Assembly: GCA_002708305.1 (NCBI GenBank)
Contig: PANE01000002.1
Location: 1-35,044, forward strand
DNA: 35,044 nt
Direction of reading: 5' to 3'
Source: Rhodospirillaceae bacterium
Lineage (GTDB): Bacteria; Pseudomonadota; Alphaproteobacteria; Thalassobaculales; Thalassobaculaceae
The notes below the pieces were generated by a model, which did no database searches, was not told the origin of the DNA, and saw only the letters and a list, made by a program, of their open reading frames with translations. Shown here one piece after another: positions 5,934 through 31,255 of this stretch; within the stretch, counting starts at the first letter, position 1; each line of letters starts with the position of its first letter. A program made the translations under genes and the position numbers.

Positions 5934-6428
5934 TTATTTTTTAGCCACCTGATAGATAAAAATTCTATCCTTAGGGATGCTTTCTAGTGGTTGAATAAGC
6001 ATATATGACCAGCCCTCTATTTCCTGATCACTAATAATTATTGCTCTGTCCTTCATTAAATCTAGCACAAGAGGTGCGATTTGTTCTGCGAGCTGCATAC
6101 TTACTTGTTTTTCTCCGGTTCCAATATCTAAGTGTGCCAATACTGAGTTCGCACCCATAACTTGATGTGCAAACGGTAAGCTATCCCGAAAGTCACCTAA
6201 ATACTGAAAGCTCTTTTCTGGTATACAGTCGGGGTGCGCAGCTATCTCTCTCTCAAAAACATATATATCACGATCAGGCAATATTTCGCGCAAATGATCG
6301 TAGGTTCTGCCATTTCCAAGACCTAATTCTAGAACCGTACCGTCTAAGTAACGTATAATGTCCACCGCCCATTCTAATACTATTTTCTGCGACGTTAAAC
6401 GACGTATAACACTGTCAAGCCTACTCAT
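5934..6428 (-). CDS. Class I SAM-dependent methyltransferase (PF12692-like)
   Basis: The SAM-binding motif I is LELGLGNGRTYDHL at about residues 33-46, followed by an acidic end of strand 2 (VFEREIAAHP) and by HLDIGTGE. The whole protein resembles the small alphaproteobacterial S-adenosylmethionine methyltransferase family described by Pfam PF12692; this is recall, not a search. The target of methylation is unknown. The ATG at 6428 gives 164 residues starting MSRLDS, the usual family start; a TTG six bases upstream at 6434 is also open. It is the last gene of a leftward set with the CNBD protein and the ABC exporter, 39 bp after the former, which suggests a role in the same glycan or export process. 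Confidence 0.8.
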   Translation of the reverse strand: MSRLDSVIRRLTSQKIVLEWAVDIIRYLDGTVLELGLGNGRTYDHLREILPDRDIYVFEREIAAHPDCIPEKSFQYLGDFRDSLPFAHQVMGANSVLAHLDIGTGEKQVSMQLAEQIAPLVLDLMKDRAIIISDQEIEGWSYMLIQPLESIPKDRIFIYQVAKK

Positions 6429-6467
6429 TCTCAATCATTCCAAAAATTATATGTGAGAAGAATAACT

Positions 6468-6917
6468 CTATTTCCGATTTAGAGCCTCTCTGAGCTGCTT
6501 ATTAGTTTCATCCAAACGGAACGCCAACTCACGCATAATTTCAATCGAGATTTCAGGAAATTCTGTTATTAAATGGAAAAAGGTGTCTTTAGTTATACGA
6601 AGGGTTGTAAGTGAGTCTTGCGCCTGGACAGTCGCAGTACGTGGAACATCACACAAGATTGATATTTCTCCAACGACACCTCCTTTTTTCAATCTTGCAA
6701 CTTCTTGAGAGCCAGAATTTGATTCTATAGAAACCACCGCTGTCCCGCTCAAAATTATGTAAGCTGCGTCTCCATCATCACCTTCTTTAAAAAGGAATTG
6801 TTCATCATCATGCCATAAACGCTCAGACGTAAATGCTAGTAATTTTAATTTGGCAGGACTTATATTCCGAAACAATGGAATATCCCTAAGTAACTCGGCT
6901 TCTTTATTTAGACTCAT
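6468..6917 (-). CDS. Single-domain cyclic-nucleotide-binding (Crp/PKA-type) protein
   Basis: The 149 residues form one cNMP-binding beta-roll with no DNA-binding helix-turn-helix and no membrane segment. The phosphate-binding cassette is intact: GEISILCDVPRTATV, with Gly83-Glu84 and the phosphate-contacting Arg93. LFKEGDDGDAAYIILSG is the usual preceding strand-turn motif. The C-terminus is an alpha helix rich in Glu, Arg and Lys. It lies between the ABC exporter (30 bp upstream) and the methyltransferase, so the likely role is to bind cAMP, cGMP or a related ligand and control the exporter or another partner. That role is inference from context. Confidence 0.87.
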   Translation of the reverse strand: MSLNKEAELLRDIPLFRNISPAKLKLLAFTSERLWHDDEQFLFKEGDDGDAAYIILSGTAVVSIESNSGSQEVARLKKGGVVGEISILCDVPRTATVQAQDSLTTLRITKDTFFHLITEFPEISIEIMRELAFRLDETNKQLREALNRK

Positions 6918-6947
6918 TTTTTTCTCCGGTATTCCTTGAGAATAATC

Positions 6948-9596
6948 CTATTCGTCACGTAATAGATTATTAAGCGTGCTATCCGGCTGACTTTCTAGCT
7001 CTTTAAAGCTACCCGTTTCGATAACTCGTCCGCCACTCATAACCAAAACACGATCAAAAACATCCGCTAAACCAACTCTCTGAAGTACCCATAAAAGGTT
7101 CTTACCTTTTGTAGCCTCCATAATATTTTTAATCACTTTAGATTGGCTACCGGAGTCTAAGGCAGATGTTGCCTCGTTTAAGATCAATACATCCGGAGAT
7201 CTTATTAATGCCCTTGCTAACGATACTTTTTGTCGTTGTGCCGCCGACAACTTTGATCCAGCCAACCCAACCTGAAAGCCAAGCCCAACCTCCACAACTA
7301 TAGGTCTAATATTCTCAGATTCTATAACTTCTGATATTAAGTTTCCAACTTGTTCACTAGAATCTGCTTTATCCGAAGCAATTTTCCCAAACAAAATATT
7401 ATCTTGTAAAGAAGCAGACCCGTTATATTTTTCTTCCGAATAAAACTCAATGGAGCCTCTCAGACTATCTGGTATATTAGAAGCGAATTCTTGTCGCGCT
7501 TTTAAAATACGAGCTTTAATTTCGTCAGTTATCAAACCAAGTCGATGCCGCGCAGGGATCAACATAAATGGTAGTGCTAAGAACCGATCGCGATCTTCTT
7601 GCTCCATAGAGTCCAGCCCTAAACGCTCCGCTCGACCCAGAAGGATTTGGAAGTCGGGTAGGTCATCGCCAGCAATGAATGAATATTGAGAGAAATACTC
7701 ATGATCAGACGGGAGATCAGCGAATAACTCAACCATTGTTGACGCTACATCACGGCCCACCCTGACAAATTCATTTTCTAATTCAACTAACCGTAGTGTC
7801 TCCCTGACATATTCGTTTTCTGCTATCTTCTCGATGACAAAATTATCACCAACTGGGGTGCCAAATAGCAGGTTTTCAGCAACTGATGCATTATTGTTAA
7901 ATTTCTCTTTGTCAAATAACTCAACTGCTTCTGATATTTCAGGTTGCTTCAATCGTTCCTGTAGCGCCTTACGGGCAGATAATATGTTTTCTGCTAACTC
8001 TTTATTTTCGAGAGGGTTAATAGTTCCCCTCAAGCCTAAAGCGTATGTGTCATCGTCAAGATCTACAATCTTTAAAAGATCTAATAGCTTTTCCCTCAAA
8101 CCGCTATCTGAATCTGATCCTATTGCTTTATAATCAAGCCAGTTAGCCTCAAGATCATCTAACGAATTTCCTGATAATTCTGCATTACGAAAATTACGTT
8201 TCTTTTCCTCTGAACTAAGGTCCTCTTCCGCGCCAACCTCCATCGGCTGATGCATTGCACCTAAGAGGATATTTTCCTTTAAGGAGCTATTGAAGACAAA
8301 TGCTGATGGGCCAACATACGCCATCCTTCGACCAGTAGCCGCCTGAGGCAATTCTAGAGTCATTTTATCTGCCACTTTTATTTGGCCGCCGTCTGGAATA
8401 AGTAACCGTGCTAAGAGGATAGCCGCCAAGTCCTTGCCGCCACTGCTTGGACCGACAATTGCAACTTGCTCTGATTTCTCTGATTGAAATGATAGGCTTT
8501 CAATGACTGGCTGGCCCTCATCATCTAATACAGAAAGATTATTCGCACTGATTGTACCTGCTAGACTAAAGTCAGCCTCTAATTCTGCGAATTGGGCATT
8601 CTCGGGTAAAATTCCAGGAGGATCGAATTGCTCTATGACTTGATCATATTTAATTTTCGAATCTGCAAGGCGTTGGTAGTAAGTTAGCAACTCTTTCCAT
8701 GGAGCCGATAAATCTTTATAAGCCGCAAGAATAGCCACTAAGGCACCAAATGTTAAATCTCCCTTGATGACCAAATAGCCACCGATTGAATAAAAGAAAA
8801 ATGGTGTTAATTGTGCAATAAAATTATTTACAAATTTAATGAAAAACTTTCTTTGAAAGATCTCATAACGGATATCGTAAATTGTCCCTAAACGCTCGGT
8901 AAACGTTGCTAAAACTCTCCGGGCTCCATCGTTTGCATGCAACTCTTCAATGCCTGAAACAGACTCGCCAATCTTCTCTGATAATCGCCGTACATTTTGG
9001 ACACGAGCTTTTCCAAGCTGATTAACGTGCCATTGAAGCTTCGGTATAATGTACCCTTGAATTGGATATAATGCGATAGCTGCCAACCCGAGCATCCAGT
9101 CCTGAACAAACATAAATATTAGTATGGTTATTAATGTCCCTCCTTGAAAGGCTGGAAGAGCAACAGAGTCTCCCACAAAACCACCAAGAGGCTCTACCTC
9201 AGCAGTAACCATTTGAATAACTTCGCCTTGACTGACGCGCCTAAACTGCGGGAGAGGGAACCTCAAGACGCGAGCCAATAGATCAAAACGTAGTCTACGC
9301 AACATACGTTCACCCAATTGCCCGCGAAATACATTTACATAGAACTTGAAACCGCCATTGATACAAACCAGCAACAGAAAAGCGAGGCTCAGAACTAACA
9401 GGTATTCGATTTGATCAATAGGCACCCCAAAGATTTCTGAGGGTATGTTCTTACCACTTATAGCCTTATTGATAATAATTTTTGGCAGGTCTAATGAAAA
9501 ATACAAAAATGGAAATGATAGTGCGGTCATAACCAATAATATTATCTGGTCGCGTTTGCTATACCGCCAAATAAATTTAAAAAGAGTTTTTTCCAT
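6948..9596 (-). CDS. Atypical ABC exporter: membrane domain fused to a degenerate, expanded ATPase domain
   Basis: Residues 1-330 form a type-IV exporter membrane domain with about six helices. The nucleotide-binding domain starts near 345 and is unusual. Walker A reads GPSSGGKD (382-389), with Asp where Ser/Thr normally coordinates Mg2+. The Q-loop region AYVGPSAF (426-433) lacks Gln. The signature is LSAAQ (783-787). Walker B reads VLILNEATSALD, with Asn807 replacing Asp but the catalytic Glu808 kept. The H-loop position is Gln840. Between about 450 and 750 there is a large acidic insertion that repeats the post-Q-loop motif NILFG. At 882 residues it is roughly 280 longer than a usual half-transporter. 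The frame is clean, so this is not a pseudogene. I recall similar proteins in other Alphaproteobacteria beside CNBD genes. The substrate is unknown; a lipid-linked glycan is plausible. Confidence 0.85.
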   Translation of the reverse strand: MEKTLFKFIWRYSKRDQIILLVMTALSFPFLYFSLDLPKIIINKAISGKNIPSEIFGVPIDQIEYLLVLSLAFLLLVCINGGFKFYVNVFRGQLGERMLRRLRFDLLARVLRFPLPQFRRVSQGEVIQMVTAEVEPLGGFVGDSVALPAFQGGTLITILIFMFVQDWMLGLAAIALYPIQGYIIPKLQWHVNQLGKARVQNVRRLSEKIGESVSGIEELHANDGARRVLATFTERLGTIYDIRYEIFQRKFFIKFVNNFIAQLTPFFFYSIGGYLVIKGDLTFGALVAILAAYKDLSAPWKELLTYYQRLADSKIKYDQVIEQFDPPGILPENAQFAELEADFSLAGTISANNLSVLDDEGQPVIESLSFQSEKSEQVAIVGPSSGGKDLAAILLARLLIPDGGQIKVADKMTLELPQAATGRRMAYVGPSAFVFNSSLKENILLGAMHQPMEVGAEEDLSSEEKKRNFRNAELSGNSLDDLEANWLDYKAIGSDSDSGLREKLLDLLKIVDLDDDTYALGLRGTINPLENKELAENILSARKALQERLKQPEISEAVELFDKEKFNNNASVAENLLFGTPVGDNFVIEKIAENEYVRETLRLVELENEFVRVGRDVASTMVELFADLPSDHEYFSQYSFIAGDDLPDFQILLGRAERLGLDSMEQEDRDRFLALPFMLIPARHRLGLITDEIKARILKARQEFASNIPDSLRGSIEFYSEEKYNGSASLQDNILFGKIASDKADSSEQVGNLISEVIESENIRPIVVEVGLGFQVGLAGSKLSAAQRQKVSLARALIRSPDVLILNEATSALDSGSQSKVIKNIMEATKGKNLLWVLQRVGLADVFDRVLVMSGGRVIETGSFKELESQPDSTLNNLLRDE

Positions 9597-9605
9597 AATG
9601 CTACA

Positions 9606-9650
9606 GTCTAAAGGTTTAATTTTTGAGGAATTAAAAATTAAACCTTAGAC
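9606..9650. repeat. Long inverted repeat in the divergent promoter region
   Basis: The arms GGTTTAATTTTT (9613-9624) and AAAAATTAAACC (9633-9644) are perfect complements around the 8-base loop GAGGAATT. Pairing continues outward as GTCTAA (9606-9611) with TTAGAC (9645-9650), with one bulged A at 9612, for 18 pairs in all. It lies 10 bases upstream of the exporter ATG and about 110 bases upstream of the glycosyltransferase run. It could be an operator for a dimeric regulator or a 5' leader hairpin of the exporter mRNA. No T-run follows the stem on either strand, which argues against an ordinary terminator. Confidence 0.6.
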
Positions 9651-9751
9651 CATGATGTTAATAAGGTAAACAAAGTGTGTTCCCTTTCTTTTTGGAAATG
9701 GAAACTAGTTAGTTGACACAATTTGTGATAGAACCGCGTTTTCTTAATGTT

Positions 9752-9763
9752 TAGGGGCAGATT
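9752..9763 (+). promoter_or_regulatory. Shine-Dalgarno of the first glycosyltransferase gene
   Basis: AGGGG at 9752-9756 lies 7 bases before the ATG at 9764. A TTGACA at 9713-9718 lies in the same spacer, but I see no convincing -10 at 16-18 bp from it, so I do not call a promoter here. Confidence 0.5.
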
Positions 9764-10999
9764 ATGCCTATAAAACAATACAGAAACAAGAGACGGCCAG
9801 CCCGTGTGCTAATGTACAGCCACGATAGCTTTGGGTTAGGTCACCTTAGGCGTTGCCGAGAAATAGCGCACTCTCTCGTGGAGTCAACATCGCGACTTTC
9901 GGTTTTGATTCTATCTGGCTCCCCTATAATAGGCAATTTTGATTTTCGGACCCGAGTAGACTTTGTAAGAATTCCTGGTGTCATAAAGTTACGAAATGGT
10001 GATTATACATCTCTTAGTTTGCATATGGATATAGAGGAAACTCTTGAGCTTCGAGAGTCAATCATAAGACATACAGCAGATACTTTTGACCCTGATTTAT
10101 TTATAGTTGACAAAGAACCATGGGGCTTAAGAGGCGAAGTAAAGCAAACTATGGAAATGTTAAAAAGGCGCGAAACACCAATAATATTGGGGCTCCGTGA
10201 TGTGATGGATGAACCTGCAGCCCTCGCCCCAGAGTGGGAAAGAAAAAATGTTTTACCCGCTTTAGAACACCTTTATGACGAGCTCTGGGTTTATGGGATG
10301 AAGGAAGTTTGCAACCCTTTCAATGGTATTGATTTGCCGGCAGCGGTAAAACTTAAAACTAGGTATACAGGATACCTGAGACGACACGTCCCGGTCGTTG
10401 GTGCTTCGCCACAGCTAACAACACCAGAAGACCCCTTTATTTTAGTTACAGCTGGTGGTGGCGGTGATGGGGAAGGTCTTATGGAATGGGTTTTACGAGC
10501 CTATGAGTATGACGCAGACCTTCCTTATCCAGCATTAATGGTTCTGGGTCCGTTCATGGCACAAGAACGACAGGTTGAATTTATAGAAAGGGCCAGTGCA
10601 TTAGATAGAGTTCAAGTCATTACATTCGATACGAGAATTGAAAGTTTAATGGCAAAAGCTGCAGGGATGGTATCCATGGGAGGATATAATACCTTTTGTG
10701 AAATATTATCTTTTGATAAAAGGGCATTAATTGTTCCTCGAACGGAACCTCGCCTTGAACAATATATTCGCGCTCAAAGAGCGGAAGAATTAGGAATGAT
10801 AAGTATGCTTGTTGATAATGGTGACCGAGATCCAAGGGAAATGGCGAAGTCACTCAGACGACTTCCAAGCCAACCTAAGCCGTCTGAAATGTTTTCTGCA
10901 GAAATATTAGGAGGATTGCAACACGTTAACCACCTTGCTAAACGATGGCTGAAAAAGAGCCGAGACCAACGTAACCTGCACGAACTAAATAGGGCCTAA
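9764..10999 (+). CDS. MurG/GT28-like glycosyltransferase (first of the cluster)
   Basis: The predicted role is transfer of an activated sugar to a glycan or lipid-linked acceptor at the cytoplasmic face. The 411-residue GT-B architecture is visible. The N-terminal Rossmann start is LMYSHDSFGLGHLRRC (about 16-31), with the glycine-rich loop and His. VTAGGGGDGEG opens the C-terminal half. SMGGYNTFCEIL is the donor-binding helix corresponding to the GGxxT/N-xxE element of MurG. No membrane segment or signal is seen. It shares the GxGHLRR and GYNTxxEIL signatures with the gene at 14031, so the two are paralogues. It is the first gene of a tight + strand run; the next starts 2 bp after its stop. 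Donor and acceptor cannot be assigned. Confidence 0.8.
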   Translation: MPIKQYRNKRRPARVLMYSHDSFGLGHLRRCREIAHSLVESTSRLSVLILSGSPIIGNFDFRTRVDFVRIPGVIKLRNGDYTSLSLHMDIEETLELRESIIRHTADTFDPDLFIVDKEPWGLRGEVKQTMEMLKRRETPIILGLRDVMDEPAALAPEWERKNVLPALEHLYDELWVYGMKEVCNPFNGIDLPAAVKLKTRYTGYLRRHVPVVGASPQLTTPEDPFILVTAGGGGDGEGLMEWVLRAYEYDADLPYPALMVLGPFMAQERQVEFIERASALDRVQVITFDTRIESLMAKAAGMVSMGGYNTFCEILSFDKRALIVPRTEPRLEQYIRAQRAEELGMISMLVDNGDRDPREMAKSLRRLPSQPKPSEMFSAEILGGLQHVNHLAKRWLKKSRDQRNLHELNRA

Positions 11000-11001
11000 A
11001 G

Positions 11002-12285
11002 TTGTTACCCGAAGTTAGTTCCGCGAGCATTGACGAACTTGCTATTATTGTAAAAGGATATCCTCGTCTATCAGAGACATTCATAGCTCAAGAAATTTTG
11101 TCTATCCAGCAATCAGGTGTAAAAATTACAATTATCTCACTTCGGCAACCCACCGATAAAAAACAGCACCCAGTTCATGGAAAAATTACAGCCAACTTAT
11201 TGTACTTGCCAGAATATCTTCTGTTAGAACCAGTTCGAGTTTTCAAAAGTTGGATAAAAATACGGTCTAAAAAAGGATACAAGAAAGCCCTAAGCACATG
11301 GTTAAGGGATTTCATGCGAGACCCTACGGCCAGTAGAGTACGACGATGGGGACAAGCGCTGGTGCTATCAGCCGAACTCAATCCGAATATTAAACACCTT
11401 TATGCACATTTTCTGCATACCCCTGCATCTGTTACTCATTACACTGCCCTTATAACTGATCGCTCTTGGTCAGTTTCCGCCCACGCTAAAGATATATGGC
11501 TGACCCCAGAATGGGAGAAACGTGAAAAACTATTATCCTGTAAATGGGCGGTAACATGCAGTTCTTATGGTTTTAACCATTTGAATACTTTTGCACCTGG
11601 AAAAACTCAATTGAGTTACCACGGACTTGATTTAACATCTCTTCCAGAGGCACCACCTTTGAGGCCAATAAATACAGGAACCCTGGAAACTAACCCTATT
11701 TGTTTTCTTTCTGTTGGGCGGGCTGTGCCCAAAAAAGGCTTTAATATTCTGCTGAAAGCTCTTTCCTTAATTCCTAATAGCCTGAGTTGGCAATGGGTTC
11801 ATGTGGGTGGAGGTCAGGAACTACGATATCTTAAAAAGTATTCTCAGGACTTAGGTTTACAGAAAAAAATAGTTTGGCGGGGCGCATGTAATCAAGGTGA
11901 GGTATTCAAAGAATACAGAAGTGCAGACATATTTATATTGCCTAGCATAATTGCGGAAGATGGAGATCGAGATGGGTTACCAAATGTCGTTATGGAAGCA
12001 GCAAGCCAAGAACTTTGCTGTATAGCAAGTGACGTAGCCGCTTTATCAGAATTTATTATACATCAAAAAACCGGCTGGCTTGTCCCACCAAATAATCCAA
12101 GCGCACTTGCTCAAGCCATTATAGACCTATCAAGCGATCACAAACTGCGAAAAGACCTTGGGATTAACAACTATAAAAGGCTAAAAGCAGATTTTTGCCA
12201 TCGTTCAGGAATTGATATAATTCTAAAAAATCTCCAAGTTCAACAAGGAACTGTAATAGACAATACAACTGAGCATGTCACATGA
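11002..12285 (+). CDS. GT4-like glycosyltransferase
   Basis: This is a GT-B glycosyltransferase of 427 residues. The N-terminal VKGYPRLSETFIAQEI motif is typical of the colanic-acid WcaL/exopolysaccharide group. The C-terminal Rossmann domain carries SVGRAVPKKGFNILLKAL and a catalytic/donor region ending DGLPNVVMEAAS, the E-x7-E-like element of GT4 enzymes. YHGLDL is the linker. The start is a TTG at 11002 preceded by AGGG (10991-10994) at 7 bases, and 2 bp after the preceding stop. The 3' end overlaps the next gene by 4 bp (ATGA), which indicates translational coupling. It probably adds a hexose during assembly of the cluster's glycan; the exact linkage is unknown. Confidence 0.85.
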   Translation: MLPEVSSASIDELAIIVKGYPRLSETFIAQEILSIQQSGVKITIISLRQPTDKKQHPVHGKITANLLYLPEYLLLEPVRVFKSWIKIRSKKGYKKALSTWLRDFMRDPTASRVRRWGQALVLSAELNPNIKHLYAHFLHTPASVTHYTALITDRSWSVSAHAKDIWLTPEWEKREKLLSCKWAVTCSSYGFNHLNTFAPGKTQLSYHGLDLTSLPEAPPLRPINTGTLETNPICFLSVGRAVPKKGFNILLKALSLIPNSLSWQWVHVGGGQELRYLKKYSQDLGLQKKIVWRGACNQGEVFKEYRSADIFILPSIIAEDGDRDGLPNVVMEAASQELCCIASDVAALSEFIIHQKTGWLVPPNNPSALAQAIIDLSSDHKLRKDLGINNYKRLKADFCHRSGIDIILKNLQVQQGTVIDNTTEHVT

Positions 12286-13427
12286 ATATTGGCTTTTACG
12301 CGCCTTTGAAGTCACCTGACTCAAAGATACCTTCTGGGGATCGCGAGATGGCTAAATTACTACTTAAGAGCCTTCAGTCTGAAGGGCATAATATTAAACT
12401 TATGAGCCATTTCAAAAGTAGAGAATCTCTAGGCCTTAGAAAGAAACAGGAAGACCTAAAAACTCAAGCAGAAAAAATTAGCAGAGACCTTTTAGAAAAA
12501 TTTTCCAACAACAAAAATTGGCAACCTGATCTCTGGTTCACCTATCATGTATTTTATAAGGCGCCAGATTTAATTGGCCCAAAAATCTCTTCCACGCTGA
12601 AAATACCCTATGTATTAGCAGAAGCCTCGCATGCGCCAAAAAGAGCCGATGGCCGTTGGAGTATGTTTAACAGAGAGGTTGAAAAAGCAGTTGCTCACGC
12701 GGACTTAATCATTGGAATCAATAGTAACGACCGCGCCGGAATAAAACAAATACTAGGAAAAAAAACGCGATATGAGGAATTAAAGCCTTTCCTCGAAATA
12801 AGTAGAATTGTGAATAGAAGGGTGGAAAGATTAACTAATCGCCAATCACTGCAAAAACTATATGGACTTCCGTCAAATTCAGTTTGGTTATTAACTGTTG
12901 GAATGATGCGCGAAGGTGCAAAATTTGGCTCCTATAAAATCCTGGCTAAAGCCATAACCAAAATGCGCGCAGGAGAGGATTGGAATTTAATTATAATTGG
13001 TGATGGTCCATTGCGAAGTGAAATAGAGGGCCTTTTTGATGATAGAATTATTTTTACAGGTGAGCTTGCATCGGAACAGCTCGAAAAATATTATTTAAGC
13101 GCTGATATTTTTTTATGGCCAGCGATTAATGAAGCTTATGGCATGGCTCTCCTCGAAGCACAATCTGCAGGAATACCAGCTGTAGTAGGAGATTCTGGTG
13201 GGGTAAAAGATATACTTCGCGATAACAAAACTGGTCTTCTAGCTGTAGAAGGTGATGTAAATGATTTTGCGAATAAAACTTGGTTGTTAATAAACAACAC
13301 TAATCTCCGAAAAGAACTAAGTCGGAATGCACTGCGGATAACAAGCCAAGAACATAGTTTTGGGCCCAATAGCAAACGACTTAGCAGTTGGATTTTAGAA
13401 ACGCTTAACAACTTTAAAAGGGTATAA
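12282..13427 (+). CDS. GT4-like glycosyltransferase (second)
   Basis: A 381-residue GT-B protein. The N-terminus MNIGFYAPLKSPDSKIPSGDREMA contains the loop that in GT4 enzymes contacts the acceptor and donor phosphate. The C-terminal half has LLTVGMMREGAKFGSYKIL, IIIGDGPLRSEIE, LSADIFLWPAINEAYGMALLEAQSAG (the GT4 E-x7-E motif) and VVGDSGGVKDIL. It overlaps the preceding gene by 4 bp, and its TAA shares one base with the ATG of the next gene, so the three are translationally coupled. No membrane segment is evident. It is full length. Sugar specificity cannot be read from the sequence. Confidence 0.85.
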   Translation: MNIGFYAPLKSPDSKIPSGDREMAKLLLKSLQSEGHNIKLMSHFKSRESLGLRKKQEDLKTQAEKISRDLLEKFSNNKNWQPDLWFTYHVFYKAPDLIGPKISSTLKIPYVLAEASHAPKRADGRWSMFNREVEKAVAHADLIIGINSNDRAGIKQILGKKTRYEELKPFLEISRIVNRRVERLTNRQSLQKLYGLPSNSVWLLTVGMMREGAKFGSYKILAKAITKMRAGEDWNLIIIGDGPLRSEIEGLFDDRIIFTGELASEQLEKYYLSADIFLWPAINEAYGMALLEAQSAGIPAVVGDSGGVKDILRDNKTGLLAVEGDVNDFANKTWLLINNTNLRKELSRNALRITSQEHSFGPNSKRLSSWILETLNNFKRV

Positions 13428-14041
13428 TGACTAGGTTACTGGCAGTAATTCGGCACGGTCTAACAGAGTGGAATGAGTTGGGGAAAATACAAGGGAGAAC
13501 AGATATTCCACTAAGCAAAAACGGTAAAGAAACCATCAAGCACCTAACTCTTCCAAGCCTTTTATCGAATATAACTTGGTTAACCAGTCCGCTATTAAGA
13601 GCCCAAGAAACAGGGAAACTACTGGGCATAACGAACATGCGTATAGATGAGCGTTTAATAGAGACAAATTGGGGAGACTGGGAAGGTAGAACTCTTGAAG
13701 ATTTAAGGAATCAATACGGCCAAGAAATGATTGAGAATGAAAAAAGAGGTTTAGATTTAATGCCTCCTGGGGGCGAGTCACCGCGCCAGGTTTCCCATCG
13801 ACTGCAGTCATTATTGAGAGAATTTTCTCAGATTAAAAACGATGAAATTGTTGGAGCCATTACGCATAAAGGAGTAATTAGATCACTCTTATCGCTTGCC
13901 ACTGGATGGGATATGTCCGAGAAGCCTCCCATTAAATTAAATTGGAAAGCTGCTCATATTTTTTCTGTAGATCTAAATGGAAAAATTGCAACTCACCAAC
14001 TCAATTTAGAGTTCAAAAAACGAAATTTATATGATGACTAA
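13427..14041 (+). CDS. Histidine phosphatase (phosphoglycerate-mutase-like) family protein
   Basis: The catalytic RHG motif is Arg9-His10-Gly11 (His10 would be phosphorylated). Other pocket residues are Arg58 in SPLLRAQET, the acid/base Glu79 in LIETNWGDWEG, and His147 in ITHKGVIRSLL. The length of 204 residues matches the small bacterial branch that includes CobC, GpmB-like and sugar-phosphate phosphatases. Embedded and coupled between glycosyltransferase genes, it may dephosphorylate a sugar phosphate or a glycan intermediate; this is inference. It begins on the last base of the previous stop and overlaps the next gene by 8-11 bp. Confidence 0.88.
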   Translation: MTRLLAVIRHGLTEWNELGKIQGRTDIPLSKNGKETIKHLTLPSLLSNITWLTSPLLRAQETGKLLGITNMRIDERLIETNWGDWEGRTLEDLRNQYGQEMIENEKRGLDLMPPGGESPRQVSHRLQSLLREFSQIKNDEIVGAITHKGVIRSLLSLATGWDMSEKPPIKLNWKAAHIFSVDLNGKIATHQLNLEFKKRNLYDD

Positions 14042-15176
14042 ACCTCGACTAATAATCTATGTTCAAAATTTGCTTGGAATTGGCCATCTGAGAAGAGCTG
14101 CAGGAGTGTCTCGCGCCGCAGTAAACAAAGGGTTCGATGTTGCATTTGTATCCGGTGGAATACCTATTAACGAACTTGACGTAGGTGGGGCAACCTTTCA
14201 TCAGATTCCACCCGTTAGGGCACTGGATGGTGATTTTAAAATTCTTGTTGATGAAAAAAATCAGCCCATAGACGATAGATGGCGAGATAAACGGCGTCAG
14301 GCTCTCCTCGAACTATTTGATAAAATTCAGCCAAAAATCCTTCTTACTGAACTTTTTCCTTTTGGTCGCAGGCAGTTCCGTTTTGAATTAATACCGCTTT
14401 TGGAGAAAGCAAAAGCTGCTTCGTGGCAACCGCGGGTAGTTTGTTCAATGCGCGATATTCTTGTTACTAAGCCACGTCACGATAGAAATTTAGAAATAGC
14501 AGAAACACTAGACACTTTTTATGATAAAATTTTAGTACATGGAGACCAAAACATCATATCGTTGTCAGATACGTTTCCATTGGAAAAACGAATATCCCAT
14601 CTGATCGAATACACTGGCTATGTCCTTACACCAGAGCATATAGGAGACACCGGTGAAGGCGGGACAGGAGAAGTTATAGTCTCTGCCGGTGGTGGCGCGG
14701 TTGGATACGAAACTTTTCCAAAGTTATTTAAACTCCGAGATAAAGTTTCTATCAATAATATTCCTTGGCGTTTTGTTACAGGACCACATATGCCGTTGGA
14801 AATTTATAAAGAACTCAAACGAAAAGAATCGAAATACGCCATTGTTGAGAGAAGTCGGCCTGATCTGCCCGCCGTTATTGGTCGGGCTACACTGTCAATA
14901 TCTCAAGCCGGATATAATACCATCGCAGAAATACTTAATTCTGGCACTCCCGCTGTTGTTGTACCCTACGAGGGTGGCGTCGAAACTGAACAGCGCTTAC
15001 GCTCTGATTTGCTAGCTAAACGATCACTACTTCAAGTCGTTGATGAAAAAAAACTCAATGCACAGACCCTAGATAAGGCTATGTGCCAAGCATTAAAAAT
15101 AACTCCTCCTAAAAAACTAGACATCAGTCTAGATGGCGCCATGGCTACATCCGATGCTTTGTGGGCTTTGTTATGA
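14031..15176 (+). CDS. MurG/GT28-like glycosyltransferase (second of the cluster)
   Basis: This 381-residue GT-B protein is paralogous to the gene at 9764. YVQNLLGIGHLRRAAG is the N-terminal glycine/His loop. VSAGGGAVGYETF opens the C-terminal domain, and ISQAGYNTIAEIL is the MurG-like donor-binding helix. VVVPYEGGVETEQRLRS follows, with the Glu-Gln-x-x-Arg arrangement also seen in the first paralogue (RLEQYIRAQRA). It starts at either of two adjacent ATGs (14031 or 14034) inside the histidine phosphatase gene and ends in an ATGA overlap with the deacetylase-like gene. The acceptor is unknown. Confidence 0.8.
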   Translation: MMTKPRLIIYVQNLLGIGHLRRAAGVSRAAVNKGFDVAFVSGGIPINELDVGGATFHQIPPVRALDGDFKILVDEKNQPIDDRWRDKRRQALLELFDKIQPKILLTELFPFGRRQFRFELIPLLEKAKAASWQPRVVCSMRDILVTKPRHDRNLEIAETLDTFYDKILVHGDQNIISLSDTFPLEKRISHLIEYTGYVLTPEHIGDTGEGGTGEVIVSAGGGAVGYETFPKLFKLRDKVSINNIPWRFVTGPHMPLEIYKELKRKESKYAIVERSRPDLPAVIGRATLSISQAGYNTIAEILNSGTPAVVVPYEGGVETEQRLRSDLLAKRSLLQVVDEKKLNAQTLDKAMCQALKITPPKKLDISLDGAMATSDALWALL

Positions 15177-15937
15177 AATTAAATTATGGTTATGAGCGAT
15201 TAGATACGGAAATTAATATATTAAATAGGATGGGTAGATCTATAGAGATCTGGTGGCGTGATGATGACTTAGAAAGCCCCAGCCCGCAATTAGATAACCT
15301 TATTTCTACTGCGAATGATCTCAAACTACCTCCGCTACTTGCTGTTATTCCGGCACGGGTCTCCAAACAGTTAGAAAAAGTGTTGAACAAATGCGATATC
15401 AAGATAGCCATTCATGGGTTTAAACATCATAATTATGAACTTTTAGAGAATAAAAAATCGGAATTTGGCAGCATCAGAACACTCGAGGCTCAAAAAATAG
15501 ATCTCCAAAATGGCATGAAACAATTAGAGCAACTTTTTGGCAAATTATTTCTTAAATGTCTCGTTCCTCCATGGAACCATATAAATGATGAACTTCCTCA
15601 CTTACTCCCCTCATTGGGTATCACAGGCCTTTCCACGTTTGCATCAAGAAAGACAACCCCCTCAATCCCAGGACTCATCCAGGTTAATACTCATGTCGAC
15701 ATTATTGATTGGAAACAAACACGGAAATTTATCGGAGCAGACCTTATGGCCCATGAAATTGCCTCTAAGTTAAAAAATAGTCGGACTGGGGCCAAAGAAG
15801 ACCAAGAACCATTAGGACTTCTATCGCATCATTTGCTAATGTCGGGTGCAGATTGGAAAGAATTTCAAGAAGTCTGCGGTTTTTTGAAAGAAAGCTCTAA
15901 TATACAATTAACAGCTCCACAAAATTACTTTGGGTAA
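15173..15937 (+). CDS. Polysaccharide-deacetylase-like (NodB/CE4-type) protein
   Basis: This would remove acetyl groups from a sugar during glycan maturation. Metal-site motifs are recognisable but divergent: WWRDDDLE (Asp30-Asp32) in place of the usual TFDDG, HGFKHHNYE (His81, His85/86) as the H-x3-H motif, and VPPWNHIND (132-136 PPWNH) as motif 3. A late LLSHHLLM follows. No signal peptide is present, so it is probably cytoplasmic, unlike many CE4 enzymes. I take the ATG at 15173 (254 residues), which forms an ATGA overlap with the previous gene. A GTG at 15161 would add four residues. Divergent members of this fold can have other hydrolytic roles. Confidence 0.72.
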   Translation: MKLNYGYERLDTEINILNRMGRSIEIWWRDDDLESPSPQLDNLISTANDLKLPPLLAVIPARVSKQLEKVLNKCDIKIAIHGFKHHNYELLENKKSEFGSIRTLEAQKIDLQNGMKQLEQLFGKLFLKCLVPPWNHINDELPHLLPSLGITGLSTFASRKTTPSIPGLIQVNTHVDIIDWKQTRKFIGADLMAHEIASKLKNSRTGAKEDQEPLGLLSHHLLMSGADWKEFQEVCGFLKESSNIQLTAPQNYFG

Positions 15938-15944
15938 AAAGAAA

Positions 15945-16478
15945 ATGAAAAGTTTTAAGTATCCAACACGCTCGTTGAGGGGGGATTATCTTAGAGCTAC
16001 TGTAGGTCTTTTGGTTACAGTAGGGCTTTTAATTGCAGCTACAAAAATCACTATCTTTCAATATCTTTTTGCCGCTGGAGCTATTCTTTTCCTTGGTTTC
16101 TTTCTCCGCACTGCTCAACGGCATTTAACCGTGTTTCATATTGCAAATGGCGCTTTATATGCACAAGGCCCATTTGGAAGCAGTATTCAACTATGTTCAG
16201 TAACAGATATACAACTGAGATATTTTTCAACACGGAAAGATCGAAATGGCGAAGGTGGCTGGTTTGAATTAACGATAAAATGTTCCAAGAGTAAAATTTC
16301 TATTGACTCGACGATTACAGGTTTTGAGCAAATCATGCAGACCTGCAAAAATATTATTCAAGAAAACAAATTGACCCCCTCAGAAACTACGGTAGATAAT
16401 TTCTCAAGCGCTGGATTTGGCCTAGAAAACCAAACGTCTTTTAATAATGATCTAAACAAGAACCAGGACACTGTATAA
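15945..16478 (+). CDS. Small membrane protein with two N-terminal helices and a PH-like tail
   Basis: I do not recognise a named family. After a basic start (MKSFKYPTRSLRGDYLRA), two hydrophobic helices span about residues 19-60. A soluble domain of alternating short strands follows: RHLTVFHIANGALYAQGPFG, IQLRYFSTRKDRNGEGGWFEL and KISIDSTITGFEQI. This layout resembles bacterial PH-like (bPH2/YdbT-type) membrane proteins. The last 30 residues are polar and probably disordered. I chose the ATG at 15945 (177 residues); a TTG at 15930 is also open. It lies between the deacetylase-like gene (7-bp gap) and the ABC importer (its TAA directly abuts the next ATG), so it belongs to the same transcript. 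Confidence 0.7.
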   Translation: MKSFKYPTRSLRGDYLRATVGLLVTVGLLIAATKITIFQYLFAAGAILFLGFFLRTAQRHLTVFHIANGALYAQGPFGSSIQLCSVTDIQLRYFSTRKDRNGEGGWFELTIKCSKSKISIDSTITGFEQIMQTCKNIIQENKLTPSETTVDNFSSAGFGLENQTSFNNDLNKNQDTV

Positions 16479-18380
16479 ATGGATGCCCCTCCCCCTCTAT
16501 TATCTGTGAAAGGCCTCGAAGTTGGGTTCGAATTACCTGAAGGCCGTTTAATGGCCGTCAAAAAGGCCTCCTTCGAGATATTTTCTGGAAAAACAGTGGC
16601 TCTTGTAGGTGAGTCTGGATCAGGAAAATCAGTAATTAGCCAAACTATTATGGGACTGCTTCCTCCACAAGCAAAAATATATGGAGGATCCATTTCATTT
16701 GCTCCCAATCTTGAAAGTAACTCTGTAATTGACGTAGCAAAATTAGACCCAAACAGTAAATCAATGCGCGAAATAAGAGGCGGGCAAATTTCAATCATTT
16801 TTCAAGAGCCCATGACGTCACTATCCCCTCTCCATACAATTGGAAATCAAATCCTAGAAGCGTTGGTTTTGCATCGTAACCTTAACTCCAGTGAAGCTAT
16901 TCAAGTGGTGATCGATATGCTTCGTTTAGTAGGTTTCCCAGATCCTAATAGAGGGTTTAAGACATATCCATTTGAACTATCTGGCGGCTTGAGGCAACGC
17001 TCTATGATTGCTATGGCGCTTATCTGTAGACCTTGCCTTCTTATAGCCGACGAACCGACAACAGCACTTGACGTTACAATCCAAGCGCAAATTCTAAAGT
17101 TAATGAAGGACCTCCAGTCTGAATTTAAAATGGCACTATTAATGATTACCCACGATCTTGGTGTCGTTGCGAATATGGCTGATGAAGTCGTAGTGATGTA
17201 CCGTGGTGAGATAATGGAAAGCGGTTCAGTAGAGGATATATTCAGACATGCCGAACACCCATATTTAAAATCATTAATGGCTGCCGTCCCGCGTTTTCAT
17301 ATGGCAGAAGGCGAGCGATTAGTGCCAATACGGAGTATTGAGTCACAATCTAGCCATCTTTTAAAACCCGGTCCCGAAGATTTAAAAACTGAAAGCGCCA
17401 TTACTATCAAACCAATCTTGTCTATCGAGGGAATTAAAAAATCATTTTCAATCCGATCGAGTGGGCTCTTCAATTTTGGAGGGGAAAAAGTCCCCGCGGT
17501 AAACGATGTCAGTTTTGACATAAAACGGGGGACCTGCCTGGGGTTGGTGGGGGAATCAGGATGCGGGAAAACAACCTTGAGTAAGATCATAATGCGAGCT
17601 GTATCACCTGATTCGGGTTCTGTTCATTATACAGATAACGATGGCAGTATTGATGTTTTATCATTAAACGAAAGATCACTTATCGACTTCCGAAAAAAAA
17701 TCCAATTTATTTTCCAGGACCCTTTTAGCTCACTTAACCCCCGTATGACCGTATTTGATATTATAAGTGAACCTCTAGTAATTCATAATATAGGAGATCA
17801 TGAATTTAGAGTTAAAATGGTTCGAGAACTTATTAATTTGGTGGGTTTGGATATCCGCCACCTTAATCGTTATCCCCATAGTTTTTCGGGTGGACAACGG
17901 CAACGTATTGGAATTGCGAGAGCACTCGCATTGAAACCACGAGTGTTGATTTGCGATGAACCAGTGTCCGCTTTAGATGTCTCGATCCAAGCTCAAGTCT
18001 TAAATTTATTAAAAGATCTTAAAGATCAACTAGCTTTAAGTTACTTATTCATTTCCCACAACCTTGCTGTCATTGATTATATAGCAGACGATGTTGCCGT
18101 TATGTGTGCCGGTCGAATAGTGGAAAAGGCCCCTAGGGCCGAATTATTCAAGAACCCCATGCACCCGTACACTAAAGCATTGTTCTCTGCTGTTCCTAGC
18201 CCTAGCCTCGACACACGGCTCGATTTTAAAAGTATCATGGATGATAGATGCTCCAATCCAGCAGAGTGGGAGTACCCCTTCACTATCACGGATGGCACAC
18301 CGACTAAAATGCTAAACACTGGAAGTGAGCATCTAGTTCGGGTGCATGAGCCCCTATCAAATTTGAAAATCGCATCATGA
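16479..18380 (+). CDS. Fused double-ATPase subunit of a family-5 (Dpp/Opp/Yej-type) ABC importer
   Basis: Two complete nucleotide-binding domains lie in one 633-residue chain, as in YejF or GsiA and equivalent to DppD+DppF. Domain 1: Walker A GESGSGKS (44-51), Q109, LSGGLRQR (168-175), Walker B LLIADEPTTALD, His225. Domain 2: Walker A GESGCGKT (358-365), FSGGQRQR (469-476), Walker B VLICDEPVSALD. Each ends with the family tail HPYLKSLMAAVP or HPYTKALFSAVPSP. All catalytic residues are intact, in contrast to the exporter at 6948. It would energise the two permeases at 20309 and 21304. The ATG directly follows the preceding stop, and the end overlaps the binding-protein gene by 4 bp. Confidence 0.93.
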   Translation: MDAPPPLLSVKGLEVGFELPEGRLMAVKKASFEIFSGKTVALVGESGSGKSVISQTIMGLLPPQAKIYGGSISFAPNLESNSVIDVAKLDPNSKSMREIRGGQISIIFQEPMTSLSPLHTIGNQILEALVLHRNLNSSEAIQVVIDMLRLVGFPDPNRGFKTYPFELSGGLRQRSMIAMALICRPCLLIADEPTTALDVTIQAQILKLMKDLQSEFKMALLMITHDLGVVANMADEVVVMYRGEIMESGSVEDIFRHAEHPYLKSLMAAVPRFHMAEGERLVPIRSIESQSSHLLKPGPEDLKTESAITIKPILSIEGIKKSFSIRSSGLFNFGGEKVPAVNDVSFDIKRGTCLGLVGESGCGKTTLSKIIMRAVSPDSGSVHYTDNDGSIDVLSLNERSLIDFRKKIQFIFQDPFSSLNPRMTVFDIISEPLVIHNIGDHEFRVKMVRELINLVGLDIRHLNRYPHSFSGGQRQRIGIARALALKPRVLICDEPVSALDVSIQAQVLNLLKDLKDQLALSYLFISHNLAVIDYIADDVAVMCAGRIVEKAPRAELFKNPMHPYTKALFSAVPSPSLDTRLDFKSIMDDRCSNPAEWEYPFTITDGTPTKMLNTGSEHLVRVHEPLSNLKIAS

Positions 18381-20302
18381 CAAAGGGATTAACGACCCTA
18401 CGATACATCACATTTTGTATCCTCATGTTTACTCAATATGCATTCGGATATTCCGAATCTCCATTACTCAAGAAAATGGTAAAGAACGGTGAACTGCCTC
18501 CCGTTGAGTCTAGACTGCCCAAAACACCAAGAACAATTGATTACTCTAGCCGTAACCTTAGCATTGGGAAGTATGGCGGGACGATTAAGATGCTTATGGC
18601 AAGAGCAAAGGATGCCCGTCAAATGACGGTATATGGTTATGCCAGGTTATTAATTTTCAAACCAAAGACGTTCGAATTTCAACCGGATATTTTGGAATCA
18701 TTTGATGTAATCGATGGTAAAAAATTTATATTCAATCTTAGGCCGGGTCATAAATGGTCTGATGGGCATCGATTTTCTACTGAAGATTTTCGTTATTGGT
18801 GGGAAGACGTAGCCAACAATACAGAACTTTCGCCAGTAGGCCCACCGAAAGTAATGAAAGTGGAAGGTCAGTTACCTCAATTTAGAGTGTTAAATGAACT
18901 AACTATCGAATATGAATGGGAGAAGCCAAATCCTGATTTTTTAGTCGCATTAGCAGGTGCAAGTCCACTTTACATATACCGGCCTGCTCATTACATGCGG
19001 CAATTTCATAGGAATTTTGTCACCGAGTCCGAACTCCAAATACGAGTTTCTGCAGCTAAACAACGCAATTGGGCTGCACTACATAATAAAATGGATAATC
19101 TCTACAGAAACGATAATATCAATTTACCAGTGTTACAGCCCTGGGTTTGTGTCAGTAAAACATCATCAAATAGATTAAGATTTAAACGAAATCCATATTT
19201 TCATAGAATAGACCCCTCGGGCCAGCAATTGCCGTATGTTGACGAGTTTGTATTTGGTATAGCCAGTAACAAATTAATATCAGCAAAATCAGGGACTGGA
19301 GAGGTAGATCTCCAAGCACGGTACCTTCGATTCGATGACTATACTTTCTTAAAGAAAGGTGAGGACCGTTCCCCTTATTCGACTAGGCTATGGCCCACAG
19401 CGAAAGGTTCACATTTAGCGCTGTTCCCAAATTTAAATCATAAAAAAGCAGAATTACGATCAATTATCAGGGATGTTAGGTTTAGACGCGCCCTATCTAT
19501 GGCAGTCAATCGATATGAAATCAATCAAGTCATTTATTATGGTTTAGCAATAGAAGGTAATAATACGGTTTTACCAGAATCACCATTATACAAACCGTAT
19601 TACAGATCAAAGTGGGCAAAGCTTGATTTAACAGCTGCCAATCAACTTTTGGATGATATGGGTCTAACTCAACGCGACAATCGAGGGATCCGATTAATGC
19701 CTGATGGCAATCCCCTAAATTTAATTGTTGAAACAGCTGGCGAAAGCACGGAACAAACCGACATTTTGGAATTAATTCATGATAGCTGGCTGAAAATTGG
19801 GGTAAAGATTTACTCCAAACCCTCTCAACGAAACGTATTCCGTAATAGAATTTTTTCTGGTGAAACCTCTATGTCGATATGGTCCGGGATAGAAAATGGA
19901 CTTGCAACAGCTAATAGTTCGCCCGCAGAATTTGCACCAACAACCCAACAATTACTGCAATGGCCTAAATGGGGCCAAAATTTCGAAACTGAAGGGAAAG
20001 CAGGACAGCCCGTTGATGACCCAAAGGCCCAAGAACTGCTCGAATTATATAAACAATGGAGAGTTGAGCCGTTATTTGAGAAAAAAGAAAAAATTTGGGC
20101 CAAAATCTTGGCAATTAATACTGAGCAGGTTTACTCAATCGGATTAATAGCAAGAGTTCTTCAACCGGTAGTAGTATCAAATAAACTTAAAAATGTCCCC
20201 TTAAAAGCAATTTATAATTGGAATCCTGGCGCACATTTTGGAATCTACAGCCCGGATACTTTTTGGTTTAAAAAATCCAACAAAAACACTCTGGAACGGT
20301 AA
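18377..20302 (+). CDS. Family-5 extracellular solute-binding protein of the ABC importer
   Basis: This is the periplasmic receptor of the importer. An N-terminal signal peptide is visible (hydrophobic ITFCILMFTQYAFG, cleavage likely near residue 24). The mature protein has SBP_bac_5 features: FQPDILESFDVIDGKKFIFNLRPGHKWSDG, then FSTEDFRYWWEDV, and later RDVRFRRALSMAVNRYEIN. At 641 residues it is longer than DppA (about 535) and closer to YejA or AgpA-like proteins. The early motif NGELPPVESRLP also occurs in family-5 proteins that bind oligosaccharides, by recall. The ligand could therefore be a peptide or a sugar; I cannot decide. Coupled by an ATGA overlap to the ATPase gene, with 6 bp to the permease gene. 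Confidence 0.9.
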   Translation: MTKGLTTLRYITFCILMFTQYAFGYSESPLLKKMVKNGELPPVESRLPKTPRTIDYSSRNLSIGKYGGTIKMLMARAKDARQMTVYGYARLLIFKPKTFEFQPDILESFDVIDGKKFIFNLRPGHKWSDGHRFSTEDFRYWWEDVANNTELSPVGPPKVMKVEGQLPQFRVLNELTIEYEWEKPNPDFLVALAGASPLYIYRPAHYMRQFHRNFVTESELQIRVSAAKQRNWAALHNKMDNLYRNDNINLPVLQPWVCVSKTSSNRLRFKRNPYFHRIDPSGQQLPYVDEFVFGIASNKLISAKSGTGEVDLQARYLRFDDYTFLKKGEDRSPYSTRLWPTAKGSHLALFPNLNHKKAELRSIIRDVRFRRALSMAVNRYEINQVIYYGLAIEGNNTVLPESPLYKPYYRSKWAKLDLTAANQLLDDMGLTQRDNRGIRLMPDGNPLNLIVETAGESTEQTDILELIHDSWLKIGVKIYSKPSQRNVFRNRIFSGETSMSIWSGIENGLATANSSPAEFAPTTQQLLQWPKWGQNFETEGKAGQPVDDPKAQELLELYKQWRVEPLFEKKEKIWAKILAINTEQVYSIGLIARVLQPVVVSNKLKNVPLKAIYNWNPGAHFGIYSPDTFWFKKSNKNTLER

Positions 20303-20308
20303 TTTTCA

Positions 20309-21307
20309 ATGCTATCATACCTTATCCAAAGAATTTTGATCATGATACCGACCTTGTTTGCTATTAGCATCATTACCTTCGTGATTATTCAACTACCCCC
20401 AGGGGATTATCTCTCAACGTATATAGCAGAGTTACAAAGCCAAGGAGAGAATGTAGATATTGCAAAGATCGAGGCTTTGCGAGCCCAATACGGGCTGGAT
20501 AAATCTATGATAGAACAGTATTGGTTTTGGGTATTCGGCCTTCTACAAGGAGATCTTGGGTTTTCATTTGAATACCAGCTGCCCGTTTCTGAAGTGGTTG
20601 GTGATAGATTATTACTAACTTTAATCCTAAACTTTACAACGATCCTCTTCATCTGGTTAGTATCATTTCCGATCGGCATCTACTCAGCGACCCATCAATA
20701 CAGTTGGGGTGATTACGGGTTAACATTTATTGGTTTTATTGGATTGGCCACTCCAAATTTTCTTCTTGCATTAGTTCTGCTTTATTTCGCTAATGTCTGG
20801 TTTGGAACATCAATAGGAGGGTTAATGGACCCTTTTTACATTGATCAACCTTGGTCATTTGCCAAAATACTCTCTATTCTTGAGCATTTGTGGGTTCCCG
20901 TAGTTGTTATTGGAACATCGGGCACAGCAAGCATGATACGTCGTTTAAGAGCGAATATGCTGGATGAACTTCAAAAGCAGTATGTCATCACAGCAAAAGC
21001 CAAAGGACTTCATCCTCTTAAAGCACTTATCAAATACCCCCTTAGGACTTCTCTAAATCCTTTTATTGCTGATATAGGGAATATGCTGCCACAGATCATT
21101 TCTGGGTCCGCTATTGTCTCTATGGTCTTATCACTGCCAACAACTGGCCCTATGTTAATATCAGCTCTGCAAAGCCAAGATATGTATTTAGCTGGCTCCT
21201 TCCTCATATTTCTCGCAATGCTAACCGTGATTGGAATGTTTCTATCCGATTTGGCATTAGCCTGGCTTGACCCTCGCATCCGTCTTGGTGGTGGAGCAAG
21301 TAAATGA
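20309..21307 (+). CDS. ABC importer permease, DppB-type
   Basis: Inner-membrane subunit of 332 residues with about six transmembrane helices. The N-terminus MLSYLIQRILIMIPTLFAISIITFVIIQLPPGD is the signature start of DppB/OppB permeases. The EAA loop that docks with the ATPase reads AKAKGLHPLKALIKYPLR. The periplasmic segment after helix 1 is moderately long. It pairs with the DppC-type permease, whose gene overlaps its stop by 4 bp (ATGA). All expected regions are present. Confidence 0.93.
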   Translation: MLSYLIQRILIMIPTLFAISIITFVIIQLPPGDYLSTYIAELQSQGENVDIAKIEALRAQYGLDKSMIEQYWFWVFGLLQGDLGFSFEYQLPVSEVVGDRLLLTLILNFTTILFIWLVSFPIGIYSATHQYSWGDYGLTFIGFIGLATPNFLLALVLLYFANVWFGTSIGGLMDPFYIDQPWSFAKILSILEHLWVPVVVIGTSGTASMIRRLRANMLDELQKQYVITAKAKGLHPLKALIKYPLRTSLNPFIADIGNMLPQIISGSAIVSMVLSLPTTGPMLISALQSQDMYLAGSFLIFLAMLTVIGMFLSDLALAWLDPRIRLGGGASK

Positions 21308-23457: not shown

Positions 23458-23702
23458 TAATTCCATAAATAGATTTTTATAAACTTTTCTATTTTTCGTT
23501 AGCATGAAAACGTTTGATATATGATTTCTTAAACCAATCACTTTTCAACAATACAGGTAACAAATTTTACCCATTTAACTCATATAAACTGCCACCGAAA
23601 AAAAGTATTAAGCGTTTAGATATAAGCATGAAGGAAGACAGAATAGATTGCTAATGTTATTAATATAGTCTTAGATATTTTAGGGATAAGGGGGAGCCAT
23701 TA
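23458..23702. other. Intergenic divergent region between panE and the dehydratase gene
   Basis: This AT-rich spacer of 245 bases must hold promoters for both directions. On the + strand AAGGGGGAG (23688-23696) is a strong Shine-Dalgarno 6 bases before the ATG at 23703. Upstream of it, TTGCTA (23648-23653) has no good -10 at the right distance. I see no hairpin, tRNA or riboswitch-like structure. The upstream extension of the panE frame covers 23458-23541, but I judge it non-coding. Confidence 0.5.
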
Positions 23703-25445: not shown

Positions 25446-25583
25446 GCGTTCTTAATCCAATTACATACTTGTGAATGATGGTGATGTCATAAAATAAGTT
25501 GTAACACTTAGTTGAAACTGCCGAACAAAATAGGTATCTACTGATCCAATTAGTGTTGTAAGCTAAAAATAGGTAGTTTTGGG

Positions 25584-26423: not shown

Positions 26424-26428
26424 CAGTT

Positions 26429-29020: not shown

Positions 29021-29030
29021 GGATTTAAAA

Positions 29031-29414: not shown

Positions 29415-29426
29415 GGGTTCAGTAAA

Positions 29427-31217: not shown

Positions 31218-31255
31218 AATATTGTGCACAAAAATCTATAGAGAGAGAAATACAA

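Follow-up and report, generated by a model that had tools for sequence, protein, structure and literature searches.

A conserved alphaproteobacterial gene set orthologous to the Sinorhizobium PPP cluster combines putative surface-glycan synthesis with an Opp-type importer and a cyclic-nucleotide-binding partner

Results

Gene content and organization of the locus

We analyzed a 35,044-nt stretch of the genome of a Rhodospirillaceae bacterium (family Thalassobaculaceae; assembly GCA_002708305.1, contig PANE01000002.1, positions 1 to 35,044), hereafter called the window, which carries a divergent locus of glycosyltransferase (GT), transporter and cyclic-nucleotide-binding domain genes. According to open reading frame calls and Pfam matches, this locus consists of 14 genes, with MT17, CNBD and ABC read leftward and GT28a, GT4a, GT4b, HP, GT28b, PDA, PHM, OppDF, OppA, OppB and OppC read rightward (Table 1). 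Neighboring genes of the rightward operon mostly overlap or abut (junctions at 12282/12285, 13427/13427, 14031/14041, 15161/15176, 15930/15937 and 16478/16479), and the only sizeable gap in the whole locus is the divergent region of 167 bp. An earlier sequence-only reading had described the ten genes from MT17 to PHM as an envelope-glycan locus; these genes are real, lie where they had been placed and follow each other nearly without gaps. The right boundary drawn at 16478 was wrong, as OppDF begins one base past it and the operon goes on through OppA, OppB and OppC to 22452 with overlaps or a few bases of spacing, so that a core part, the importer, had been overlooked, as had a published orthologous locus (see below).

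Table 1 Features of the divergent locus, with coordinates in the window
Feature	Position	Strand	Description	Evidence
MT17	5934..6434	-	small S-adenosylmethionine (SAM) methyltransferase	Methyltransf_17 PF12692, 1.6e-48 (Pfam)
CNBD	6468..6917	-	stand-alone cyclic-nucleotide-binding domain protein, 149 aa, no other recognized domain	cNMP_binding PF00027, 6e-18
ABC	6948..9596	-	MsbA-fold half-transporter, 882 residues, degenerate ATP site, ~300-aa insert with duplicated helical segment	ABC_membrane + ABC_tran
Divergent intergenic region	9597..9763	none	presumed promoters of both units	
GT28a	9764..10999	+	GT-B glycosyltransferase-like, 60-90% identity in relatives	GT28 C-terminal domain PF04101, 1.4e-08
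GT4a	11002..12285	+	family-4-type glycosyltransferase	PF00534, 3.9e-34
GT4b	12282..13427	+	family-4-type glycosyltransferase	PF00534, 6.8e-28; 34% identity to L089 counterpart
HP	13427..14041	+	histidine phosphatase (branch 1)	His_Phos_1 PF00300, 3.4e-37; active-site region conserved
GT28b	14031..15176	+	second GT28-like glycosyltransferase	PF04101, 2.7e-11
PDA	15161..15937	+	polysaccharide-deacetylase-like, metal-site motifs intact	motif conservation; weak orthologue Pfam match
PHM	15930..16478	+	two-helix membrane protein with PH-like domain	AlphaFold model, weak PH matches
OppDF	16479..18380	+	fused double ATPase of dipeptide/oligosaccharide-type ABC importer	PF00005 x2, oligo_HPY x2
OppA	18377..20302	+	large family-5 solute-binding protein	PF00496, 4e-52
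OppB	20309..21307	+	importer permease	PF00528
OppC	21304..22452	+	importer permease	PF00528, OppC_N

The gene set is gained and lost as a unit

We surveyed 192 alphaproteobacterial genomes from 168 genera and found GT28a in 69, ABC in 71, GT28b in 69 and OppA in 66 of them. GT28a and ABC were common to 68 of the 72 genomes with either gene (Fisher p ~4e-47, without correction for phylogeny); GT28a occurred without ABC in one genome, by a weak 34% match, and ABC without GT28a in three. The pairwise tests among GT28a, ABC, GT28b and OppA all gave p values of 5e-46 or lower, likewise uncorrected, and each of the 66 genomes with a close OppA also holds the GT genes. The distance between GT28a and ABC is at most 10 kb in 47 of the 68 genomes, 44 of which have the two genes head to head, and in the other 21 the genes lie apart, often on different contigs, and both are still kept. 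The proposal that the exporter and GT genes form one system is thus strongly supported, and homologues of the two sets were not found mostly apart. Within the families f1, f15, f20, f60 and f134 some genomes have both GT28a and ABC and others neither, a pattern that speaks against plain common descent. A broader sample of the phylum gave 15 genomes with ABC, which are those with a close GT28a, plus one distant GT28a match (33%).

The local arrangement was followed in 80 GTDB loci retrieved via GT28a. At least five of the ten families first described were present in 72 of these loci and in all 38 that are longer than 20 kb, OppDF was present in 37 of these 38 and adjoins GT genes in 60 of the 80, and the gene order of the window is the usual one across many genera. 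GT28a is placed between OppDF and OppA in two loci (L019 and L034). Plasmid searches likewise recovered the gene set from Sinorhizobium pSymB, from plasmids of Rhizobium and from azospirilla. Local contigs of beta-type genomes with the GT block gave the impression that the exporter is absent from them; this was discarded, since a whole-genome search located the ABC gene, missing at the locus, elsewhere in 10 of 10 genomes, several of them metagenome-assembled. We thereby show that the 14 genes belong to one conserved set, the members of which are jointly acquired and lost. MT17, with family members in 54 of the 192 genomes, 52 of which have GT28a, tracks the genomes that have this system yet is dispensable. 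Members of the PF12692 methyltransferase family occur almost only in system-bearing genomes, at times in two or more copies (G013, G058, G066, G077, G079, G084, G168 and G176). DUF3095, tried as a linked core gene, occurs in only 15 of the 192 genomes and is therefore not core.

Orthologous loci in rhizobia

The orthologous locus of S. meliloti is the pSymB cluster smb21252-smb21271, located at 837 kb in strain 1021. For 11 of the 14 genes of the window locus, a counterpart exists in the Sinorhizobium pSymB locus L089 (CP140934.1), where OppDF, OppA, OppB, OppC, GT28a, GT4a, GT28b, ABC and CNBD, with GT4b and PDA upstream, share one stretch of 22 kb. HP, PHM and MT17 had no match in this locus, which contains other methyltransferases, and it exceeds the window locus by a class III cyclase, a UDP-glucose dehydrogenase, DUF3095, a PF14099 polysaccharide lyase and a mechanosensitive channel. 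The cyclase gene is followed directly by the lyase gene, just upstream of the importer (L089:9335-11661). The ABC gene of CP140934.1 is unannotated and lies in two frames (L089:22593-25300); other strains align in one piece, and the two frames may reflect a frameshift or sequencing error.

A surface polysaccharide of uncharacterized chemistry, provisionally named phazolicin-protecting polysaccharide (PPP), is reported to require nine genes of the interval smb21252 to smb21271 (PMC10128002). According to the same study, disruption of smb21252 or smb21265 reduces the minimal inhibitory concentration (MIC) of phazolicin from 1.47 to 0.18 ug/mL, an eightfold higher sensitivity, disruption of cyaA also sensitizes the cells (MIC 0.74 ug/mL), and orthologues matter for pyocyanin tolerance in Agrobacterium. 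Seven of the nine PPP genes are up-regulated under Myxococcus attack (PMC10315480). We inferred SMb numbers by counting along the record from the published anchors SMb21247 (deacetylase), SMb21248 (aminotransferase) and SMb21249 (sulfotransferase); by this numbering, SMb21252 is the predicted orthologue of GT4b, and SMb21265 must be that of GT28a or GT28b. The phazolicin-sensitive mutants of the orthologous cluster support, by analogy, the envelope glycan that had been proposed for the window locus, and the function class is in part already described, in 2023, with the PPP cluster.

In the redA/redB region of R. etli CIAT 652 plasmid pA (RHECIAT_PA0000036-46), OppDF-A-B-C, GT28a, GT4a, GT28b, ABC and CNBD run in one direction with MT17 nearby. 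It differs from the window locus in the cyclase genes and UDP-glucose dehydrogenase that lie alongside, and the part examined gave no match to GT4b, HP, PDA or PHM. The R. etli orthologues of GT28a and GT4a are annotated as redA and redB (L092:14189-16678), names for which no explaining paper was found.

The ABC protein has a degenerate ATP site

The membrane domain and core of the ABC protein match MsbA, PCAT1 and P-gp (PF00664, 1.3e-22; Foldseek TMt 0.64 to PCAT1 and MsbA). Its ATP-site motifs were counted in 53 aligned rows, one of which (L103) is in the wrong reading frame. The Walker A lysine position is occupied by Lys in 35 rows and Arg in 12, and the following residue, normally Ser/Thr, is Asp/Glu in 42 rows and Ser in one, with Thr not listed. 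The Walker B Asp is kept in two rows; 37 rows have Asn instead and 10 have Ser. The Walker B glutamate is present in 39 rows, and the members from R. etli, A. ramasamyi and Ruegeria have no Walker A lysine. An ATPase-competent pairing of Walker A (GKS/T) and Walker B (Asp) is thus not what this protein has, family-wide. The decay is specific to the ABC protein, because the importer ATPase OppDF of the same locus keeps both of its sites intact.

The first Q-loop segment and the signature are separated by an insert of ~300 residues, in which a helical segment with an [ED]N[IL]LFG motif occurs twice (similarity of the two copies: hhalign probability 98.9, E 2.5e-17); the canonical position gives a third match to this segment, a shorter one. 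Several residues of the insert are invariant, whereas the catalytic motifs vary. Compared with type IV ABC exporters of the MsbA/PglK type, the window protein shares the ABC_membrane fold and half-transporter organization but differs in the degenerate Walker A and B motifs, the insert with its duplicated segment and the CNBD partner. We found no description of degenerate ABC exporters in the open-licence papers searched. Judged by these motifs, the ABC protein appears to have lost parts needed for ATP hydrolysis, and the degenerate site makes a nucleotide-gated permease or regulator more likely than a normal ATP-driven pump. Extra divergent ABC paralogues with 33-37% identity were seen in G143 (three matches), G305 (two matches) and L094.

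Cyclic-nucleotide input

The phosphate-binding cassette of CNBD is intact in 46 homologues: G83 and R93 are present in all 46, E84 in 43 (Asp in the other three), and Thr follows R93 in 44. In several genomes, including Rhodobacterales and Azospirillum, CNBD is fused to the C-terminus of ABC (L038, L054/L101, L057/L100, A. ramasamyi L093:15001-18150 and Ruegeria L094:14001-17096), and in L038, L054 and L057 the fusion gene sits inside the GT operon at the usual position of PDA. The Ruegeria fusion stands alone, without GT genes nearby. Cyclase genes are found within the rhizobial loci and also directly beside ABC in G045 and G124; the genome of the window has eight class III cyclases, all on other contigs. 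The sequence-only reading had the product exported under second-messenger control. The second half of this statement, cyclic-nucleotide control, is a prediction supported by the intact cassette, the fusions and the cyclases near other loci, and the first half, export, is doubtful given the degenerate ATP site.

Two other roles for CNBD were considered and rejected. It is annotated as Crp/Fnr in S. meliloti, which is misleading, since in 149 residues only the CNBD is recognized; a transcription factor of that type does not fit a protein that lacks a C-terminal DNA-binding helix-turn-helix domain and is fused to ABC in other genomes. Pycsar or another anti-phage defense was dropped because PADLOC matches only the CNBD part of such effectors, which in Pycsar carry a TIR or membrane killer domain and are encoded next to a cyclase, and the window locus contains neither effector nor cyclase.

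The Opp-type importer

OppDF, OppA, OppB and OppC have the composition of an Opp/Dpp-type ABC importer, with a family-5 binding protein, two permeases and paired ATPases whose Walker A and B motif sets are all intact and conserved. OppA shows full-length similarity to T. maritima OppA (5ipw, 2.3e-80) and to SPH1118 of Sphingomonas sp. A1 (7ver, 9.5e-68), a protein annotated as peptide-binding that binds galacturonan oligosaccharides and hardly peptide mixtures (PMC9314435). The stacking Trp594 and Arg466 of SPH1118 align to W615 and R485 of the window OppA and are mostly kept in the family, and an oligosaccharide ligand is plausible for OppA. This pectin-binding relative, along with the lyase of the Sinorhizobium locus, suggests by analogy that the importer takes back glycan fragments.

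Accessory proteins, divergent region and flanking genes

Neither PDA nor PHM of the window has a Pfam match. The PDA motifs RDDD, HG..H and PPW[N] are conserved across 56 sequences, and the Sinorhizobium orthologue matches Polysacc_deac_1/DUF2334 below threshold; as no signal peptide is apparent at its N-terminus, PDA is probably cytosolic. The AlphaFold model of PHM (pLDDT 91.6) has two membrane helices and a beta domain, its best Foldseek matches are weak and mostly PH domains, and relatives touch bPH_6 below threshold. Within the divergent region lies an inverted repeat of two perfect 14-bp arms around an 8-nt spacer (9611-9646), which is not present in four congeneric sequences. A CRP-type operator (TGTGA-N6-TCACA) was rejected as an element of this region: the window has 13 matches at two mismatches versus 14.6 expected by chance, none of them in 9597-9763. 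A promoter and terminator scan remained at chance level.

The flanks (window:1-5930 and 22474-34748) encode ordinary metabolism, with genes for GTP cyclohydrolase, TrkH, PGK, a Nudix protein, ketopantoate reductase, dihydroxy-acid dehydratase, pantothenate synthetase, acyl-CoA synthetase, succinate dehydrogenase and a TPP enzyme.

Discussion

We lean, by a modest preference, towards reading the locus, the orthologue of the Sinorhizobium PPP cluster, as a system for a surface glycan with a CNBD-gated or CNBD-regulated ABC step and retrieval of fragments. Its product is probably a protective cell-surface sugar polymer, fragments of which are re-imported. At the cytosolic face of the inner membrane, two GT28-type and two GT4-type transferases would build the glycan, the cytosolic deacetylase PDA and the phosphatase HP, perhaps also MT17, would modify it, and PHM may help to anchor the assembly at the membrane. 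The ABC protein and its CNBD partner, with cAMP or cGMP bound, would pass the product across the inner membrane or control that step. The importer would then retrieve fragments of the same glycan by means of an OppA related to a binder of uronic-acid oligosaccharides rather than to a peptide binder.

Several points weigh against this interpretation. For none of the members of the system has a product been isolated, and the PPP phenotype is assigned to nine S. meliloti genes within the range smb21252-smb21271. In the Pfam scan of the window genes, the locus showed neither a polymerase, a priming transferase, an outer-membrane exporter nor a flippase of known type, and it also has no lyase or cyclase of its own. 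The acid-binding Arg57 and Arg438 of SPH1118 are missing from the window OppA, and the co-occurrence tests take no account of phylogeny.

The sequence-only reading had already seen no match to Wzx/Wzy or capsule schemes, and the Pfam scan agrees. These systems and those of the KpsMT or Wzm/Wzt type also pair glycosyltransferases with membrane translocation, but the locus lacks all of their marker proteins: the window genes include no Wzx flippase, Wzy polymerase, priming transferase or co-polymerase, the rest of the genome not having been searched, and instead of an ABC2-type permease with a separate ATPase the sole exporter-like protein is the ABC_membrane half-transporter. GT28/MurG-type enzymes often use lipid acceptors, and four transferases without polymerase, co-polymerase or priming transferase would fit a short, fixed oligosaccharide. 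A small glycolipid or oligosaccharide, for instance a membrane glycolipid made by the GT28-type transferases, is accordingly a possible though rather unlikely product, given the polysaccharide lyase of the Sinorhizobium locus and the description of PPP, if without chemistry, as a surface polysaccharide (PMC10128002). A small-thiol pathway resembling that of mycothiol or bacillithiol, with its GT, phosphatase and deacetylase, was dropped in view of the four transferases plus importer. The ABC protein might still be an ordinary ATP-driven exporter of a glycan or glycolipid that CNBD only tunes, in keeping with its MsbA/PCAT1/P-gp fold, with the Lys or Arg that most members carry where the Walker A lysine belongs and with the frequent Walker B glutamate. 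We consider this unlikely, as the Walker A Ser/Thr is mostly replaced by an acidic residue, the Walker B Asp is almost always lost, some members have no Walker A lysine and the locus offers no partner half-transporter with an intact site.

For the importer, transport of peptides or muropeptides in an operon merely shared with glycan genes seems improbable. Family-5 binding proteins and Opp permeases usually carry peptides, the closest solved relative of OppA by score is T. maritima OppA, and the related YejBEF-YepA imports muropeptides (PMC9790009). Against this stand the invariable company of close OppA with GT genes, the adjacency of OppDF to them in most loci, the insertion of GT28a between OppDF and OppA and the mis-annotation of SPH1118 as peptide-binding (PMC9314435). 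That the locus merely consists of two unrelated neighboring operons whose co-occurrence mirrors common descent is extremely improbable: a chromosomal position near genes read by eye as xthA, lolA and ftsK is common to many relatives and suggests vertical inheritance, but the two sets also co-occur where they are not linked, on plasmids of rhizobia and azospirilla, in beta-type genomes and through gains and losses within families, and in three loci (L038, L054 and L057) the GT operon includes the ABC gene.

As the orthologue of a provisionally named polysaccharide cluster, the locus is not categorically new. The wide system was not found described, by family names or otherwise, in open-licence papers, and what is new, as far as this literature goes, is how widely it occurs, that the importer is one of its core parts, that ABC and CNBD are fused in some genomes and that the ATP site has decayed along with a segment duplication. 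About one-third of the sampled alphaproteobacterial genera (59-60 of 168), and beta-type genomes too, carry the set as a unit that follows no standard export scheme. The surface-glycan interpretation would link the provisional polysaccharide that one rhizobium needs to withstand a peptide antibiotic to a general envelope system equipped with an importer and a cyclic-nucleotide input. Were the ATP site indeed dead, the ABC protein would offer an unusual example of an exporter fold put to another use. A more specific and doubtful idea is that it represents a widespread family of the ABC-exporter fold without ATP hydrolysis, with a triplicated Q-loop-like segment in its nucleotide-binding domain, opened by cAMP or cGMP via an attached or separate CNBD to release a surface glycan; if true, bacteria would have a counterpart of those ABC proteins, CFTR and SUR among them, that have become gated channels or regulators.

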